In this document: positions 1,391-7,836 of the stretch, piece after piece
How the letters are laid out: every line of letters begins with the position of its first letter
How positions within the stretch are numbered: position 1 is the first letter of the stretch
Assembly: GCF_035917995.1 (NCBI RefSeq)
Contig: NZ_CP109131.1
Span: forward strand, 4,712,001-4,776,000
Direction of reading: 5' to 3'
Length of the DNA: 64,000 bases
DNA from: Streptosporangium sp. NBC_01755
GTDB lineage: Bacteria; Actinomycetota; Actinomycetes; Streptosporangiales; Streptosporangiaceae
The notes under the pieces: model-generated
Database searches by the model: none
The model's input: the letters and a program-made list of their open reading frames with translations, nothing else
Told to the model about the DNA's origin: nothing
Made by a program: the position numbers and the translations under genes

Positions 1391-2070
1391 ACACGGTCAA
1401 ACCCTCATTACAGTTGCCGCGCTCCTCTGACGGTTCACCTCCGGTGGTGGTGCAGGTCGCGGGTGAGGCCGCGTTGTTCTCGCGGCCGGAGTTGAAGGCC
1501 GAGCGGCTGACCTATCCGGTGATGACACCGACTGCCGCCAGGGGAGTGCTGGAGGCGATCTTCTGGAAGCCGCAGATGCGCTACCGGGTGGTGGCCGTCG
1601 AAGTGCTCAAACCGATCAAACAGTTCACCATCCGGCGCAACGAGACCCATCAGGTGGTGTCGATGGCCGGGGCGCTGCGCGGGGATCGGGTGGACACCGC
1701 CGCCAATCGGGACCAACGCAACGCTGTGTGCCTGCGTGATGTGGCCTATCGGATCCACGCCCATATCGAGGCCGGTACGCAGGCCAACAAGAACGCCGCA
1801 GCCTACCGGGACCAGTTCCGGCGCAGGGTTACCCGAGGCTCCTGCTTCCACCAGCCGTTCCTGGGCACCAAGGAGTTCAGCGCGGACTTCGGCGATCCCG
1901 ACGACACACCGCCGATCAACCGGACCGAGGATCTGGGGGTGATGCTGCACACCATCCATTTCGGGCCACCGATCCAGATGGAGTGGTTCACCGCCCGACT
2001 CGACAATGGTGTGCTGTACGTGCCTGAACGCGGAATCCACGTCCCAGCGGTCTCGACCGGCGGTGGCTGA
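1387..2070 (+). CDS. cas5c: Cas5c (Cas5d), type I-C crRNA-processing endonuclease
   Basis: This is a 227-residue RAMP-fold protein. In type I-C systems, which lack Cas6, Cas5c cuts the repeat hairpin at its 3' base and stays bound to the crRNA 5' handle. Family hallmarks are LFSRPELKAERLTYPVMTP near residue 30, AIFWKP, the RRNE segment near residue 83, and GSCFHQPFLGTKEF in the C-terminal half. I place the start at TTG 1387. It overlaps the cas3 stop, has GAGGAG eight bases upstream, and gives the usual family length; the frame is open further upstream but overlaps cas3. The stop overlaps the cas8c ATG (TGATG), so translation is probably coupled. Confidence 0.93.
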   Translation: MNTVKPSLQLPRSSDGSPPVVVQVAGEAALFSRPELKAERLTYPVMTPTAARGVLEAIFWKPQMRYRVVAVEVLKPIKQFTIRRNETHQVVSMAGALRGDRVDTAANRDQRNAVCLRDVAYRIHAHIEAGTQANKNAAAYRDQFRRRVTRGSCFHQPFLGTKEFSADFGDPDDTPPINRTEDLGVMLHTIHFGPPIQMEWFTARLDNGVLYVPERGIHVPAVSTGGG

Positions 2071-3887
2071 TGCTGCTGGCACGCCTGGTGGAGTACGCCA
2101 GAGACCGCTTGATATCGCCACCGCCGTTCTACAGAGCACAGAAAGCCCAATGGATCCTGGAACTGCGGGCCGATGGTTCTCCGCTGTCGCCCACGCTGAC
2201 GCCCTTGGTCGACCCTGGCGATCCGCTGCGTAAGAACGGCGTCGAGTACGTGGTGCCCTCGATCACCAAAACTGTGGGCATCGAACCGAAGGTTGCCTTG
2301 GACAACCCGGAATACCTGCTGGGCTGGATCGCCAAAGTTGCCAAACCTGATCGGGTGGCCAAAGCCCATCAGGCATTCATCGACCTGACTGACCAGTGGG
2401 TGAAATCTGATCCTGACTCTCCCGCGCATACACTGCACCGCTTCCTGACCGAGGGACATGTTGAGCGGTTCACCGAGCAGGAAGGGTGGGGCCGGGGAGA
2501 CCTGATCTTGGTACGGATCCATGATGATTCGGTACCTGGGGGTGTCTTCCTGCACGAGACCGAATCGGCCCACCAGTTCTGGGACACGGTGGCTTATTCG
2601 CGAAAAGGTTTAGGAAACAGTGGGCTCTGCCTGGTCTGTGGCAGCATGGGGAAACTGCTGAAAACCATTCCCCAGCAGTTACCCGCGAGGCTGGTGCCAC
2701 AAGCAAGTCAGAGCGCGTCCCTGGTCAGCGTGAACAAGGCCACCCACGGCTTCGCCCTGCAGGAGCAACTCACCCACACTCCGATCTGCGTACAGTGCGG
2801 TCTGGCGGCGATGGGTGCGCTGGAAAGCCTGCTGGACCATCAGTGGAGAAGCGCGCTGACCGGGCAGAACACTCGCCTGGCCTGGTGGGTCACCGGAGAG
2901 AGCGACCTCACCTTGGATCCGCTGGACGACCCTCGTGCTCACCCCGAACAGGTGGCCCGCATCCTGGGCGCCGCAGCACGCGGCAGGCAGGCGGCCCCAC
3001 TGACTCAGGAGGACCTGAGCACCTTCTGCGCGGTCACCATCGGGGGCAACGTCTCACGGGTCATGGTCCGCGACTGGATCGAACTGCCCCTGGCTGATAT
3101 CCAGGACAACCTTGCGGCCTGGTTCACCGACCACGCGATCACCGATGCCTGGACCGGAGAGGTTCGCCACACCGGGCTTGGCAGGATGGCGTTGGCCGGT
3201 GGCCGCTGGCTGGGCGACCGCAAAATATATGCCGCCTTCGGTGCCTCCGGAGCCGATCGCCCCGACGGCCTGTATCAAGGACTGCTTCGCGCCGCCCTGC
3301 TGAACAAACCGTTGCCGCCCAAGCTGCTGGCCCACGTGGTCCACCGAATCCGAGCCGATGGCCGCCTGGACACCGAACGCGCGGCCCTGCTGCGCCTGGC
3401 ACTGGTCCGGCGACCCGGTATCTCCCATCCGGAGGCATACATGCCCTTGCTCAATCCCGATCATCATCAGCCGTCCTACCTGGCCGGTCGGCTCTTCGCC
3501 GTTCTCGAAGACGTGCAACTCTCGGCCTCTCGCGCGGGCGGTGACGACGCCCCCAACGTCACCTTCACCGACCGCTATTTCAGCCGAGCGGTGACCAGCC
3601 CCGCCGTCGCTCTGGTCGCCGGCCGAAAAGACGCGCGTGCCTGGCTCAAACGACTGCGCCGCGACCAGCCCGGTTGGGCCCAGCGCGCCCAAGAGACCCT
3701 GGACGATCTGTTCTCCCAGCTGGTAGTCGCCGGGGGCGTCCCGCACGGCGCAGTCCTGGCCGACCAGGCGGCCTTCATCCTGGGCTACCACCACCAGCGC
3801 GCCACCACCCGAGCCGAGCGTATCGCCAGCAAAGCAGCCAAAACCTCCAACCAGCAGCTCGACCCGCAAGAAGGAGCTCGCGCATGA
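2070..3887 (+). CDS. cas8c: Cas8c (Csd1), large subunit of the type I-C Cascade
   Basis: This is a 605-residue large subunit of the I-C effector, the component that reads the PAM and helps recruit Cas3. The length is typical of Csd1 proteins. Two CxxC pairs (CLVCG near residue 187 and CVQCG near residue 243) form the zinc-finger-like element seen in this family. The ATG overlaps the cas5c stop, and its own stop overlaps the cas7c ATG (ATGA). Assignment rests on length, the Cys pairs and its position between cas5c and cas7c; sequence conservation in this family is low. Confidence 0.9.
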   Translation: MLLARLVEYARDRLISPPPFYRAQKAQWILELRADGSPLSPTLTPLVDPGDPLRKNGVEYVVPSITKTVGIEPKVALDNPEYLLGWIAKVAKPDRVAKAHQAFIDLTDQWVKSDPDSPAHTLHRFLTEGHVERFTEQEGWGRGDLILVRIHDDSVPGGVFLHETESAHQFWDTVAYSRKGLGNSGLCLVCGSMGKLLKTIPQQLPARLVPQASQSASLVSVNKATHGFALQEQLTHTPICVQCGLAAMGALESLLDHQWRSALTGQNTRLAWWVTGESDLTLDPLDDPRAHPEQVARILGAAARGRQAAPLTQEDLSTFCAVTIGGNVSRVMVRDWIELPLADIQDNLAAWFTDHAITDAWTGEVRHTGLGRMALAGGRWLGDRKIYAAFGASGADRPDGLYQGLLRAALLNKPLPPKLLAHVVHRIRADGRLDTERAALLRLALVRRPGISHPEAYMPLLNPDHHQPSYLAGRLFAVLEDVQLSASRAGGDDAPNVTFTDRYFSRAVTSPAVALVAGRKDARAWLKRLRRDQPGWAQRAQETLDDLFSQLVVAGGVPHGAVLADQAAFILGYHHQRATTRAERIASKAAKTSNQQLDPQEGARA

Positions 3888-4762
3888 GCGCACACCTGGA
3901 CCCGGCCGTCCGGCACGACATCGTGTTGCTGTTTGACGTCACCGACGGCAACCCCAACGGCGACCCGGACGCGGGTAACCAGCCACGCACCGACGACGAG
4001 ACCGGCCAGGGCCTGGTCACCGATGTCGCGCTCAAGCGCAAGATCCGCGACGTCATTCCCCAGATCAAGCCCGCAGACGATCGCTACGGCATCTTCGTCG
4101 AAGCCGGACACGCCCTCAACCCGCGCATCGAGCAGGCCCGCACCATCACCAAGGGCACGACCGAGGAACAGCAGCGCTGGCTGTGTGACCGCTATGTTGA
4201 CATCCGCCTGTTCGGCGCGGTGCTCAGTACCGGCAAGAAGGAAGAGGGAAGCAAAACCGCCGGAGCGGGACAGGTACGCGGCCCCCTGCAGTTCACCTTC
4301 GCACGCAGTCTGGACCCGGTACTGCCCAGTGACAACGCCATCACCCGCGTCACCCCTACTCGGCAAGAAGACCTCGACTCGGGTAAGCGCACCGAGATGG
4401 GTTCCAAATGGACCCTTCCCTACGGGCTCTACCGAGCCCACGCCTTCTACTCCGCTGGACGCGCGGCCAAGACCGGCGTCACCGGCGAAGACCTGCAAAC
4501 CCTGTGGACGGCCCTGACCCTGATGTTCGACCATGACCGCTCCGCCGCACGCGGAGAGATGAGACTGTGCGGCCTGTACGTCTACAGCCACCCCAACGCC
4601 CTCGGCGTGGCACCCGCGGCGGCCCTTTCCAGCCGCATCCGGGTGGAGCGTTCCGACACTGAAAAGCCGCCGCGCCACTACACCGACTACCGGCGCGTCA
4701 TCGCCAACGACGACCTGCCAGAAGGCGTCACCTTCTGGACAGCAGTGGATCTGTGGCCCTGA
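3884..4762 (+). CDS. cas7c: Cas7c (Csd2), type I-C Cascade backbone subunit
   Basis: This is a 292-residue RAMP protein that multimerises along the crRNA spacer to form the Cascade backbone. The N-terminus is diagnostic: HDIVLLFDVTDGNPNGDPD followed by PRTDDETGQGLVTDVALKRKIRD. A later segment, KWTLPYGLYRAHAFYS, is also characteristic. I chose ATG 3884, which overlaps the cas8c stop and has AAGGAG eight bases upstream. A longer frame reaching back to 3674 lies inside cas8c and is not needed. The 3' end overlaps the cas4 start by 10 nt. Confidence 0.95.
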   Translation: MSAHLDPAVRHDIVLLFDVTDGNPNGDPDAGNQPRTDDETGQGLVTDVALKRKIRDVIPQIKPADDRYGIFVEAGHALNPRIEQARTITKGTTEEQQRWLCDRYVDIRLFGAVLSTGKKEEGSKTAGAGQVRGPLQFTFARSLDPVLPSDNAITRVTPTRQEDLDSGKRTEMGSKWTLPYGLYRAHAFYSAGRAAKTGVTGEDLQTLWTALTLMFDHDRSAARGEMRLCGLYVYSHPNALGVAPAAALSSRIRVERSDTEKPPRHYTDYRRVIANDDLPEGVTFWTAVDLWP

Positions 4763-5397
4763 CCACCGATGACGGGAGCGCGGAACTGGTCAGCATCCCG
4801 CTGTCGGCGCTGGAACACCTGACCTACTGCCGACGCCAGGCGGCCTTGATCCACGTCGAGGCCACCTGGACCGACAACGTCGACACCGTACGCGGCGAAC
4901 TCGCACACGCCGTCGTCGACCTACCGGGTACCCGTCGGCGGCGCAGTGTGGCCCTGGTGCGTTCTCTGCCGGTCCGCAGCCGTGTTCACGGCCTGCACGG
5001 TGTCTGCGACCTGGTGGAGATCGAAGGCGACCACGCCACACCCGTGGAGTACAAGGTCGGCCCCTACCATCCTCAGGGGCCGGCCGACCTCCAACTCGCA
5101 GGTCAGGCCGTCTGCCTGGCGGAAGCCGGCTACGCCGTACCCGAGGGCTACATCTACTCCGCCGCCGACCGTCGTCGCCACCAGATACCTATCACCCCTG
5201 AACTGATCACTCGTACCCTCGAAGCCACTGTCGCAATGCGTGATCTCCTGCTCCAGGACAGGCTCCCTCCCGCCCACAACGACCGCCGTTGCCGTCGCTG
5301 CTCGCTCCGCGATGACTGCATGCCCGAACTCACCCACACATCGCACCGGACCACCACCCCTTTTGAAATCCGTCCGTTGGGAACCTGGCGTGACTGA
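4753..5397 (+). CDS. cas4: Cas4, RecB-like exonuclease of CRISPR adaptation
   Basis: This is a 214-residue Cas4 that trims prespacers and helps choose PAM-adjacent ends together with Cas1-Cas2. It carries the expected single N-terminal Cys (YCRRQ, residue 26) and a C-terminal Cys triad (RRCRRCSLRDDC), the ligands of a 4Fe-4S cluster. The RecB nuclease core is visible as PVEYKVG and QLAGQAVCL. The start is GTG 4753 inside the end of cas7c. The stop overlaps cas1, so expression is coupled to the adaptation genes. Confidence 0.94.
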   Translation: MALTTDDGSAELVSIPLSALEHLTYCRRQAALIHVEATWTDNVDTVRGELAHAVVDLPGTRRRRSVALVRSLPVRSRVHGLHGVCDLVEIEGDHATPVEYKVGPYHPQGPADLQLAGQAVCLAEAGYAVPEGYIYSAADRRRHQIPITPELITRTLEATVAMRDLLLQDRLPPAHNDRRCRRCSLRDDCMPELTHTSHRTTTPFEIRPLGTWRD

Positions 5398-6412
5398 ACT
5401 CCTCAACACCCTGTACGTCCAGACGCCCGGTAGCAGCCTGCACCTGGAAAACGACACCCTCCGAGTGGTTCACCCCGACCAGCCCGGCCGTAAGATTCTG
5501 CCGCTCGCGCGCATCGACCATCTGGTGTTGTTCGGCGGCGTCACCATCACCGATGATCTGCTGCTGCGCTGCGCCGATGACCGTCGCAGTATCAGCTGGC
5601 TGACCGGCTTCGGACGTTTCCGCGCCCGCGTGTGTGGCCCCACAGCGGGGAACCCACTGCTGCGCCGCTCCCAACATCGTGCCCATGACGATGAAGCCTG
5701 GCGGCTTTCCATCGCTCAGCGCATGGTCGCCGGAAAGATCCACAACAGCCGGCAGGTGCTCCTCCGTGCCGCTCGGGACGCCAGCGGCGCCAAACAGAGC
5801 ACTCTTCGCGCAGCCGCCGAGCGCAACGCCGTCGCGCTGACCCAAACGGGCCAAGCCGATGACATCTCGGTCCTGATGGGTACCGAGGGCATGGCCGCCC
5901 GTGACTACTTCGCAGCCCTGCCCGCGATGTGTCCCAGCGCCGCCACGCCCTTCCAACGTACCCGCCGCCCTCCGGCCGACCCGGTCAACTGCCTGCTGTC
6001 ATTTCTGTACGGCATGTTGCGCGTCGCGGTCCATGGAGCCCTGGAACAGGCTGGACTTGATCCCTACATCGGGTTCCTGCACGGCGTACGGCCAGGAAAG
6101 CCCGCTCTGGCGCTGGACCTGATGGAGGAGTTCAGGCCGCTGCTGGCCGACAGGCTCGTCATGACCATGCTCAACCGCAAAGAGCTCAGCGAAGGCGACT
6201 TCGAACGCCTACCCGGGGACGTGGTCCGTCTCACCGACAACGCCCGGCGTACCGTCCTGAACGCCTGGCAGACCAGCCGCCAACGGACCTGGCCACATGC
6301 TCACCTGCAACGCGAGGTGCCCGCCGCACTTCTGCCCCTCATTCAGGCCCGGCTGCTGGCCCGACACCTGCGCGGTGATCTGGATGAATACCTCCCATGG
6401 ACTGTGAACTGA
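5390..6412 (+). CDS. cas1: Cas1 integrase, type I-C
   Basis: This is the 340-residue metal-dependent integrase that, with Cas2, inserts new spacers at the leader-repeat junction. The N-terminus (ELLNTLYVQTPGSSLHLENDTLRV) is typical of I-C Cas1. Predicted metal ligands are E166 in LMGTEGMAARDYF, H231 in FLHGVRPGKP and E246 in ALDLMEEF. The start is GTG 5390, overlapping the cas4 stop; an upstream ATG at 5240 in the same frame lies inside cas4 and would add unrelated residues. This protein is directly relevant to the shifted repeat register in the adjacent array. Confidence 0.95.
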   Translation: MTELLNTLYVQTPGSSLHLENDTLRVVHPDQPGRKILPLARIDHLVLFGGVTITDDLLLRCADDRRSISWLTGFGRFRARVCGPTAGNPLLRRSQHRAHDDEAWRLSIAQRMVAGKIHNSRQVLLRAARDASGAKQSTLRAAAERNAVALTQTGQADDISVLMGTEGMAARDYFAALPAMCPSAATPFQRTRRPPADPVNCLLSFLYGMLRVAVHGALEQAGLDPYIGFLHGVRPGKPALALDLMEEFRPLLADRLVMTMLNRKELSEGDFERLPGDVVRLTDNARRTVLNAWQTSRQRTWPHAHLQREVPAALLPLIQARLLARHLRGDLDEYLPWTVN

Positions 6413-6413
6413 C

Positions 6414-6704
6414 ATGGACTTGCTGGTGACCTACGACGTGGAGACCATCACAAAGGAGGGGCAGGCACGGCTGCGCCGGGTCGCGAAGATCTGCGAGGGT
6501 TACGGCCACCGCGTCCAGAAATCGGTCTTCGAAATCGTGTGCTCCGAGGCGGACAAGCTCCGCCTGGTCGCAGCTCTTACCCATACCATCGATCACAGCA
6601 GCGACACGGTGCGCATCTACCGCCTCCCCGCCCAGGCGCTGGACGACGTCGAACACCTGGGCATCAGACGGGCCATTGACCCCCGAGGCCCCTTGGTGAT
6701 CTAG
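6414..6704 (+). CDS. cas2: Cas2, adaptation-complex subunit
   Basis: This 96-residue ferredoxin-fold protein dimerises and bridges two Cas1 dimers; the complex measures spacer length and holds the repeat. The N-terminus MDLLVTYDVET has the conserved Asp near residue 8, followed by RLRRVAKICEGYGHRVQKSVFEI, which is diagnostic of the family. The ATG is one base after the cas1 stop. It is the last gene of the cas operon, and the array begins 125 bp downstream. Confidence 0.95.
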   Translation: MDLLVTYDVETITKEGQARLRRVAKICEGYGHRVQKSVFEIVCSEADKLRLVAALTHTIDHSSDTVRIYRLPAQALDDVEHLGIRRAIDPRGPLVI

Positions 6705-6829
6705 GAACCTCCGGTATGCCCGCGACACGCCACCTGTTCCGAACCGGAAATCAACACCAATCGGGCATTTCTCCCCACCTGTCGGATGCTTCTTCGTTGA
6801 GAAATGGTTAAAATCCCAGCTCAAGAACG
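6705..6829 (+). promoter_or_regulatory. CRISPR leader
   Basis: This is a 125 bp non-coding stretch between cas2 and the first repeat, more AT-rich than its surroundings, with GAAATGGTTAAAATC at 6801-6815. Its position next to cas2 and at the intact end of the array marks it as the leader; the opposite end of the array has a degenerate repeat. A TAAAAT element at 6809-6814 could serve as a -10 box for pre-crRNA transcription. The leader now ends at CAGCACCGC, an imperfect copy of the repeat's own first nine bases. Confidence 0.75.
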
Positions 6830-7836
6830 CAGCACCGCCAGCACCGGCCCTCCGGGGTCGGTGAGCCACCATCGCTGTCGCCTCTCTCCCGGCCCTTGCA
6901 GGGCAGCACCGCCAGCACCGGCCCTCCGGGGTCGGTGAGCCGGCCCCAAGGCCCGGATCCGCAACAACGTGCTCACCCAGCACCGCCAGCACCGGCCCTC
7001 CGGGGTCGGTGAGGCTCTTCACGCAGGACGGCACACCGCTGCCCCGCTCCCCAGCACCGCCAGCACCGGCCCTCCGGGGTCGGTGAGGACCCACAGCCAG
7101 GGGGTTGTGCCCCGGTAGAGCGGCCAGCACCGCCAGCACCGGCCCTCCGGGGTCGGTGAGGATCGCAACCAGGGACCGGACGGGGAGCCCATGGAGCAAT
7201 GCATGCCAGCACCGGCCCTCCGGGGTCGGTGAGGATCGCAACCTCGTCAGCGATGTGAGCGTGCAGCATGCTCTTGATCCAGCACCGGCCCTCCGGGGTC
7301 GGTGAGGATCGCAACCACCATGGAGGTCGTCATGCCGCTGGTGTCGATCACGGCCAGCACCGGCCCTCCGGGGTCGGTGAGGATCGCAACGCGGATGTTC
7401 CAGCCGTCGCCGCCTCCGAGGTCGTACCAGCACCGGCCCTCCGGGGTCGGTGAGGATCGCAACGGGTACTCGCCCTGGGCCTCGGGCAACGTGTCGTAGC
7501 CCAGCACCGGCCCTCCGGGGTCGGTGAGGATCGCAACCGCAACCACAGCGGCGAGCCCCGCACCGCTCGCGACTTCCAGCACCGGCCCTCCGGGGTCGGT
7601 GAGGATCGCAACAAGACAACGGAGGCAGTCAGGGTGTGGCAGCACACGACCAGCACCGGCCCTCCGGGGTCGGTGAGGATTGCAACCTGGTCGAAATCGG
7701 GGAAGTCGCGGTCGAGCTGGTCGGCCAGCACCGGCCCTCCGGGGTCGGTGAGGATCGCAACGTGGACTCATACAGGCGGTAGACGGCCTCGATCTGGTCC
7801 CAGCACCGGCCCTCCGGGGTCGGTGAGGGGCGCAGC
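6830..7836 (+). CRISPR. Type I-C CRISPR array, 14 repeats and 13 spacers, with shifted leader-proximal repeats
   Basis: The bulk repeat is 37 nt. It starts CCAGCACCGGCC, contains a 9 bp stem with a TCCG loop, and ends AGGATCGCAAC. It occurs at 7206, 7279, 7354, 7427, 7501, 7576, 7650 (one C-to-T change), 7725 and 7800; the last copy is degenerate at its 3' end. Repeats at 6830, 6904, 6978 and 7052 are 36 nt: they carry an extra CAGCACCGC at the 5' end and lack GATCGCAAC at the 3' end. The repeat at 7125-7169 has both extensions. Spacers are 36-38 nt, at 6866-6903, 6940-6977, 7014-7051, 7088-7124, 7170-7205, 7243-7278, 7316-7353, 7391-7426, 7464-7500, 7538-7575, 7613-7649, 7687-7724 and 7762-7799. 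The stem leaves exactly 11 nt at the 3' end, the handle length expected for Cas5c processing. Confidence 0.98.

Follow-up and report, generated by a model that had tools for sequence, protein, structure and literature searches.

The four newest repeats of the CRISPR array that follows cas2 (array B) begin nine bases earlier than the older repeats and lack nine bases at their 3' end. Judging from the sequence, this shift is very probably explained by a duplication of the nine-base start of the repeat, a leader-side cut that did not move and a second cut fixed 37 nt away.

The type I-C operon and the structure of array B

The analyzed window (64,000 nt) corresponds to positions 4712001-4776000 of an 8.15-Mb single-contig genome. 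Its first 6.7 kb contain a type I-C operon on the forward strand, in which all seven genes of the type occur in the order cas3, cas5c, cas8c, cas7c, cas4, cas1c and cas2; array B is located 3' of cas2, on the same strand. The 3' part of cas3 extends from position 2 to 1390 (the whole gene, L009:5139-7391, is open over 750 aa), followed by the reading frame of cas5c at 1321-2070 (TIGR01876, E 4.6e-39), cas8c/csd1 at 2070-3887 (TIGR01863, E 1e-71), cas7c/csd2 at 3884-4762 (TIGR02589, E 2.6e-81), cas4 at 4753-5397 (TIGR00372, 95.3 bits against a cut-off of 65), the reading frame of cas1c at 5381-6412 (TIGR03640, E 1.7e-126) and cas2 at 6414-6704 (TIGR01573, E 2.5e-17); the starts given for cas5c, cas7c and cas1c are approximate. 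The curated model cut-offs were passed by Cas5c, Cas8c, Cas7c, Cas4, Cas1c and Cas2. With a score of 89.8 for the part scanned, cas3 stayed under its cut-off of 102.45, which likely reflects that the window holds just the 3' part of the gene. The lowest E-value for cas4 was obtained with a Cas4g/Cas1g fusion model, yet the score was far under the cut-off of that model. Type I-C systems have no cas6, and their pre-crRNA is processed by Cas5c; within the operon, all seven genes were assigned to families other than cas6. The closest named relatives of the Cas1 protein (72-80% identity) were found in Acrocarpospora, Thermoactinospora, Rhodococcus and an Actinomycetes bacterium.

Array B (6830-7836) consists of 14 repeats in units of 73-75 nt, which have the 27-nt core CAGCACCGGCCCTCCGGGGTCGGTGAG in common. 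Cores 6-13 are preceded by C and followed by GAT[C/T]GCAAC, giving the 37-nt repeat CCAGCACCGGCCCTCCGGGGTCGGTGAGGATCGCAAC with a single C-to-T change in one copy. The part of the array in this old register (CCAGCACCGG...GATCGCAAC), repeats 6-14 with their spacers, occupies positions 7206-7836; repeat 14 is a degenerate terminal copy and therefore marks the old end of the array. CAGCACCGC precedes cores 1-5, and GATCGCAAC is absent from cores 1-4 and present at core 5; repeats 1-4 have gained 9 nt at the 5' end and lost the 3' GATCGCAAC, and repeat 5 has both and measures 46 nt. Repeats 3 (6977-7013), 4 (7051-7087) and 5 (7124-7169) begin one base earlier than repeats 1 and 2, with a C, and their added segment repeats the first nine bases, CCAGCACCG, exactly and in tandem, the start reading (CCAGCACCG)(CCAGCACCG)GCCC. 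Repeats 3 and 4 are 37 nt long and lack GATCGCAAC, and repeat 5, the hinge between the two registers, is composed of the tandem copy and the full old 37-nt repeat. The C is missing from repeats 1 (6830-6866) and 2 (6904-6940), both of which are preceded by G; repeat 1 comprises the 36 nt common to repeats 2-5 plus a C common to repeat 2. The newest spacer, spacer 1, is placed at 6867-6903 on the assumption of leader anchoring. The leader (6705-6829) lies between cas2 and repeat 1 and ends in ..CAGCTCAAGAACG. New spacers measure 36-37 nt and old ones 36-38 nt, lengths that are uninformative on the ruler.

The initial annotation had reported the early start of repeats 1-4 with its 5' gain and 3' loss, and an unchanged spacing of 73-75 nt per unit; both descriptions hold for array B. 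It also rightly gave repeat 5 both ends, but its start at 7125 has to be corrected to 7124 to include the leading C. The segment at the leader end, which it had called an imperfect copy of the repeat start, is indeed a copy, for which 'imperfect' is too weak a word: it is perfect in repeats 3-5 and one C short in repeats 1-2.

A chance origin of the doubled start is ruled out by comparison of the copies, as 36 nt are identical across five successive repeats (1-5) and a doubled start of this kind is seen at one junction among 35 arrays, that of array B. Repetitive DNA is difficult to assemble and the analysis used the assembled sequence, so that an error of assembly or a collapse of repeats next to the leader may be considered; given a single contig with 99.47% completeness and 1.87% contamination, and given that a collapse would not make four different spacers and a coherent series of steps, this is extremely unlikely.

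The sister array and arrays of relatives

A second array in the same genome (array A, 18 repeats) is located upstream of cas3, and its leader is homologous to that of array B. Apart from the end copy, its repeats are full 37-nt repeats in the old register. In leader A, ..AATCCCAGCTCAAGAACG is followed directly by CCAGCACCGA, the junction lying between ..CAGCTCAAGAACG and CCAGCACCGA; in leader B, ..AATCCCAGCTCAAGAACG is followed by CAGCACCG and then CCAGCACCGG, the junction lying between ..CAGCTCAAGAACG and CAGCACCG-CCAGCACCGG. The alignment of the two leaders shows 8 extra nt in B at the junction and, some 30 nt further upstream, a single other gap, of 1 nt. An origin of the array B repeats by gene conversion from array A is not favored, position 10 being A in the repeats of array A and G in all repeats of array B. 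One spacer of array A is present twice, two units apart (L009:3770-3805 and 3916-3951, after repeats 6 and 8), which suggests a product of recombination or repeated acquisition.

Relatives were surveyed in samples of one genome per species; array A and the arrays of other species thus served to reconstruct the ancestral state. Cas1c-positive genomes numbered 29 of 345 in the order sample, 13 of 394 in the class sample and 23 of 396 in the phylum sample (own genome and overlaps counted); regions were taken from all 56 other positive genomes, together with the loci of the named Cas1 relatives, and 52 of the 62 loci scanned held an array passing the criteria. The close-check set comprised 40 distinct arrays with 818 repeats, 35 of them with upstream sequence, after removal of L068 and L069, which come from the genomes already represented by L064 and L065, a second view of array B in L009, and eight arrays with an automatic consensus outside 36-39 nt. 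Removal of nine arrays with a consensus under 24 nt left a larger collection, 68 arrays with 1,814 repeats, the majority of these arrays beside Cas1c-like genes. Whatever sequence stands upstream of an array was assumed to be its leader, and some of the phylum-level arrays may belong to other subtypes because the adjoining Cas1 is just 38-47% identical. Two loci stood apart: L030:8364-12131, in a genome of the same genus (G001), has about 51 repeats of the same family in a genome with no Cas1c match at E 1e-60, and is possibly an orphan array; L096 (genome G056) has four arrays with strongly diverged repeats, for which the automatic consensus was only 19 nt.

Every consensus repeat of the close-check set ends in GAGGATCGCAAC (35 of 40) or a form of it (GAGCATCGCAAC in four, GAGCATCGAAAC in one), and in all 40 the last 12 nt read GAG[GC]ATCG[CA]AAC. 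Among 166 leader-end repeats of 35 arrays (the first five of each array, with the last repeat left out), only four, repeats 1-4 of array B, have at least three mismatches among their final nine bases. Other repeats with at least four mismatches in this segment were terminal, next to terminal in one case (L083), or single internal copies with small indels (L078 repeat 8, L088 repeat 18, L090 repeat 14), and none of these changes was inherited. A test for register shifts between neighboring repeats, using the first six pairs per array in one orientation, picked out array B as well as a single pair in L079. As a few arrays, L105, L106 and L123 among them, may be misoriented in that test, a second one covered all pairs in both directions, and among the 68 arrays a run of shifted neighbors was found in array B only (four consecutive flagged pairs); isolated flagged pairs occurred in five others (two each in L064 and L078, one each in L075, L079 and L102). 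At the leader end of L070 the first 14 repeats, out of 40, have a 1-nt variant, and in L083 the first 10, out of 28, likewise have one.

Duplicated repeat start and the position of the two cuts

The preferred reading starts from an ordinary array, the first repeat of which would have had its nine initial bases duplicated, presumably by replication slippage, to become a 46-nt repeat. Cas1-Cas2 would have kept cutting at the unchanged leader-repeat junction, with the second cut 37 nt further on, and spacers 4, 3 and 2 would have been inserted with exactly 37 nt copied from the leader junction each time, so that each later repeat would keep the doubled start and end nine bases short of the old end. 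The junction would then have lost one C, after which the insertion of spacer 1 would have followed the 37-nt rule as before. When computed, one duplication, one 1-nt deletion and the 37-nt rule rebuild the observed array exactly, and a distance of 37 nt between the two cuts, irrespective of the bases at positions 10-37, fits four of four insertions. The support comes from one array in one genome. For the type I-C system of B. halodurans, the available part of one report describes integration at the leader end first (PMC6519985).

None of the 34 other leaders, leader A included, carries a copy of its own repeat start at its end, and of the 35 arrays with upstream sequence array B is the only one in which the 9 nt directly ahead of the repeat resemble its first 9 nt (at most three mismatches). 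The extra stretch CAGCACCGC is therefore repeat sequence and not leader DNA, being absent from the sister leader and from relatives and present as a tandem copy in repeats 3-5. A T[CT][AG] triplet at -9 to -7, six bases before the repeat, was found in 30 of the 34 other leaders (all 35: TCA 19, TCG 9, TTG 2, other 5); array B falls among the others only with the junction at the old repeat start, and has TCA when the junction is set at the doubled start. Since the TCA-N6 point coincides with the start of the extra bases in B, the leader-side cut appears to have stayed in place while the repeat body was pushed away. A pre-existing leader end of CAGCACCGC, at which the integrase slipped once to an upstream pseudo-junction, would give an identical final sequence, and the leader end does mimic the repeat start; it is improbable, however, in view of the 34 leaders without such a copy, the exact tandem match of the added bases in repeats 3-5 to the repeat start, and a TCA-N6 distance that fits the unmoved cut only. 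Two proposals of the initial annotation fall with it, namely that the integration site had moved 9 nt into the leader, against which the leader A junction also speaks, and that the leader's own sequence supplied a second junction upstream, as the extra bases are a duplication of the repeat. Its idea of a ruler that moved both cuts together survives for the distance rule but not for the movement of the leader-side cut. A one-time change inherited by all later insertions, with repeat 5 as the hinge, is what the model rebuilds, and array B can be read, as had been proposed, as a record of adaptation before and after it. What was expected of an unchanged relative, a single CAGCACCG at the leader junction and complete repeats of 37 nt, is seen in array A, where the end copy is the exception, and in relatives from other species.

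With regard to the second cut, the neighbors 1/2, 2/3, 3/4 and 4/5 have 2, 0, 1 and 2 nt in common after GGTGAG, against 10 nt for 5/6. As neighbors share at most 2 nt, neither the 3' arm nor the loop nor the 3' end placed the second cut in these four insertions. A 3'-anchored ruler (cut 11 nt past the hairpin) was rejected, since it predicts either 46-nt repeats keeping GATCGCAAC or a common spacer start of at least 9 nt per insertion, and neither was observed. The comparison of copies makes it highly likely that the second cut is located by distance, counted either from the leader junction or from the nine bases with which the repeat begins. Both anchors fit array B, and the 5'-arm motif could be the true one because the duplicated segment contains the 5' arm CACCG. 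Were this arm to set the ruler within the duplication scheme, the cut after the loss of the C would fall 1 nt into the leader and repeats 1-2 would begin with G; a G does precede repeat 2 and this model, too, rebuilds the array exactly, but the C after GGTGAG in repeats 1 and 2 is what leader anchoring predicts, and the CACCG anchor is accordingly given a real though minor chance. The loss of the C thus agrees with the predictions of both anchors, and one of the two agreements is a coincidence, for which the odds are in each case about one in three or four (a rough estimate, not computed). A duplication at the start of the repeat, followed by newer repeats short of nine bases at the other end, suggests that the enzyme inserting the spacers takes its measure of repeat length from the side of the leader.

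Array B resembles known type I-C systems in gene content and order, in 37-nt repeats with the 3' end of its relatives, in its homologous leader and in a hairpin followed by 11 nt, and differs from them in its four newest repeats, which lack the 3' nine bases and have the 5' nine bases doubled. It shares with the rulers of types I-E, I-B and II-A that distance keeps the repeat length and that indels alter which bases are copied. In the available text of PMC6895254, these rulers lie inside the repeat, so that insertions upstream shift the second cut by the inserted length and the 3' end is kept; the II-A insertions described there are of 1-3 nt. The natural 9-nt upstream insertion in array B, unlike these internal rulers, led to loss of the 3' end: repeats 1-4 are without GATCGCAAC. 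A reach of 46 nt may be sterically impossible, as the same text regards the second cut as probably limited sterically to a range of distances, and a motif ruler might have failed merely for this reason. The ruler work of Goren 2016 and Wang 2016 is considered here as summarized in PMC6895254 and PMC5382924. The I-B second cut, in the summary of PMC5382924 ruler-based and independent of repeat sequence, comes closer to the behavior of array B. As in inherited leader-proximal variants (L070, L083, the ordinary form), a change in the first repeat was copied into newer repeats; unlike these 1-nt variants, the change in array B alters length, so that the copied window shifts. Among the papers listed in searches of the open-licence literature there was engineered work but no natural case of a register shift, nor, there or in the portions of text available, a ruler test for type I-C.

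Predicted handles and implications for CRISPR memory

Type I-C Cas5c (Cas5d) leaves an 11-nt 5' handle on the crRNA, according to the available part of PMC5965380. A hairpin was predicted in six of six folds (old repeats, shifted repeats and three whole units), although two of the three whole repeat-spacer units were overall no more stable than shuffled sequence. In these predictions the hairpin is followed by the 11 nt AGGATCGCAAC in the old repeats and in repeat 5, of which repeats 1-4 retain just AG. The predicted handles of spacers 1-4 are AGCCACCATCG, AGCCGGCCCCA, AGGCTCTTCAC and AGGACCCACAG, all mutually different, and that of spacer 5 is AGGATCGCAAC. If Cas5c still cuts at the base of the stem, crRNAs 1-4 would carry handle bases derived from the spacer, and their guides would begin 8-9 nt into the protospacer, at a distance from its PAM side. 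Since the lost bases make up 9 of the 11 nt of the predicted handle, spacers 1-4 should not interfere and are probably inert. The shifted repeats could still function, for example if Cas5c tolerated any handle, and the shift would then be neutral; the array did grow by four more spacers and the predicted hairpin is intact, but the complete conservation of the last 12 nt among the 40 consensus repeats and guides lying 8-9 nt off the PAM side make this unlikely. With inert spacers, the newest immune memories may be unusable, and current immunity would rest with array A and its normal repeats. Two phage searches for protospacers, which covered both arrays, gave weak matches only (one and two records, E 0.1-0.4), and a plasmid search with array B gave eight weak records (best E 2e-3, six of eight under 80% identity), none of which was accepted as a protospacer; exact 20-nt pieces of spacers 1-4 had no match in viral_contigs in any of four scans. 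Chances are about even that the integrase places its second cut purely by distance, counted from the junction or the nine initial bases, with no regard to the remaining repeat sequence, a single 9-nt stutter having permanently turned a working array into one that still records invaders but in an unreadable register, beside a functional sister array.

Array B is a natural experiment on how Cas1-Cas2 sets the repeat length in a Cas4-containing type I-C system, whereas published ruler tests, as far as the available texts go, use engineered length changes in types I-E, I-B, II-A and V-A. Its outcome points to a ruler with a leader-side anchor, in contrast to those inside the repeat that have been described for types I-E, I-B and II-A. 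The event belongs to a single genome, yet it is a clean and testable natural experiment. If the explanation is true, adaptation would have been uncoupled from interference through a mutation of the repeat register, a predicted failure mode of CRISPR memory in which insertion continues and crRNAs are misread, and which array-finding software could detect by comparing the newest with the oldest repeats.
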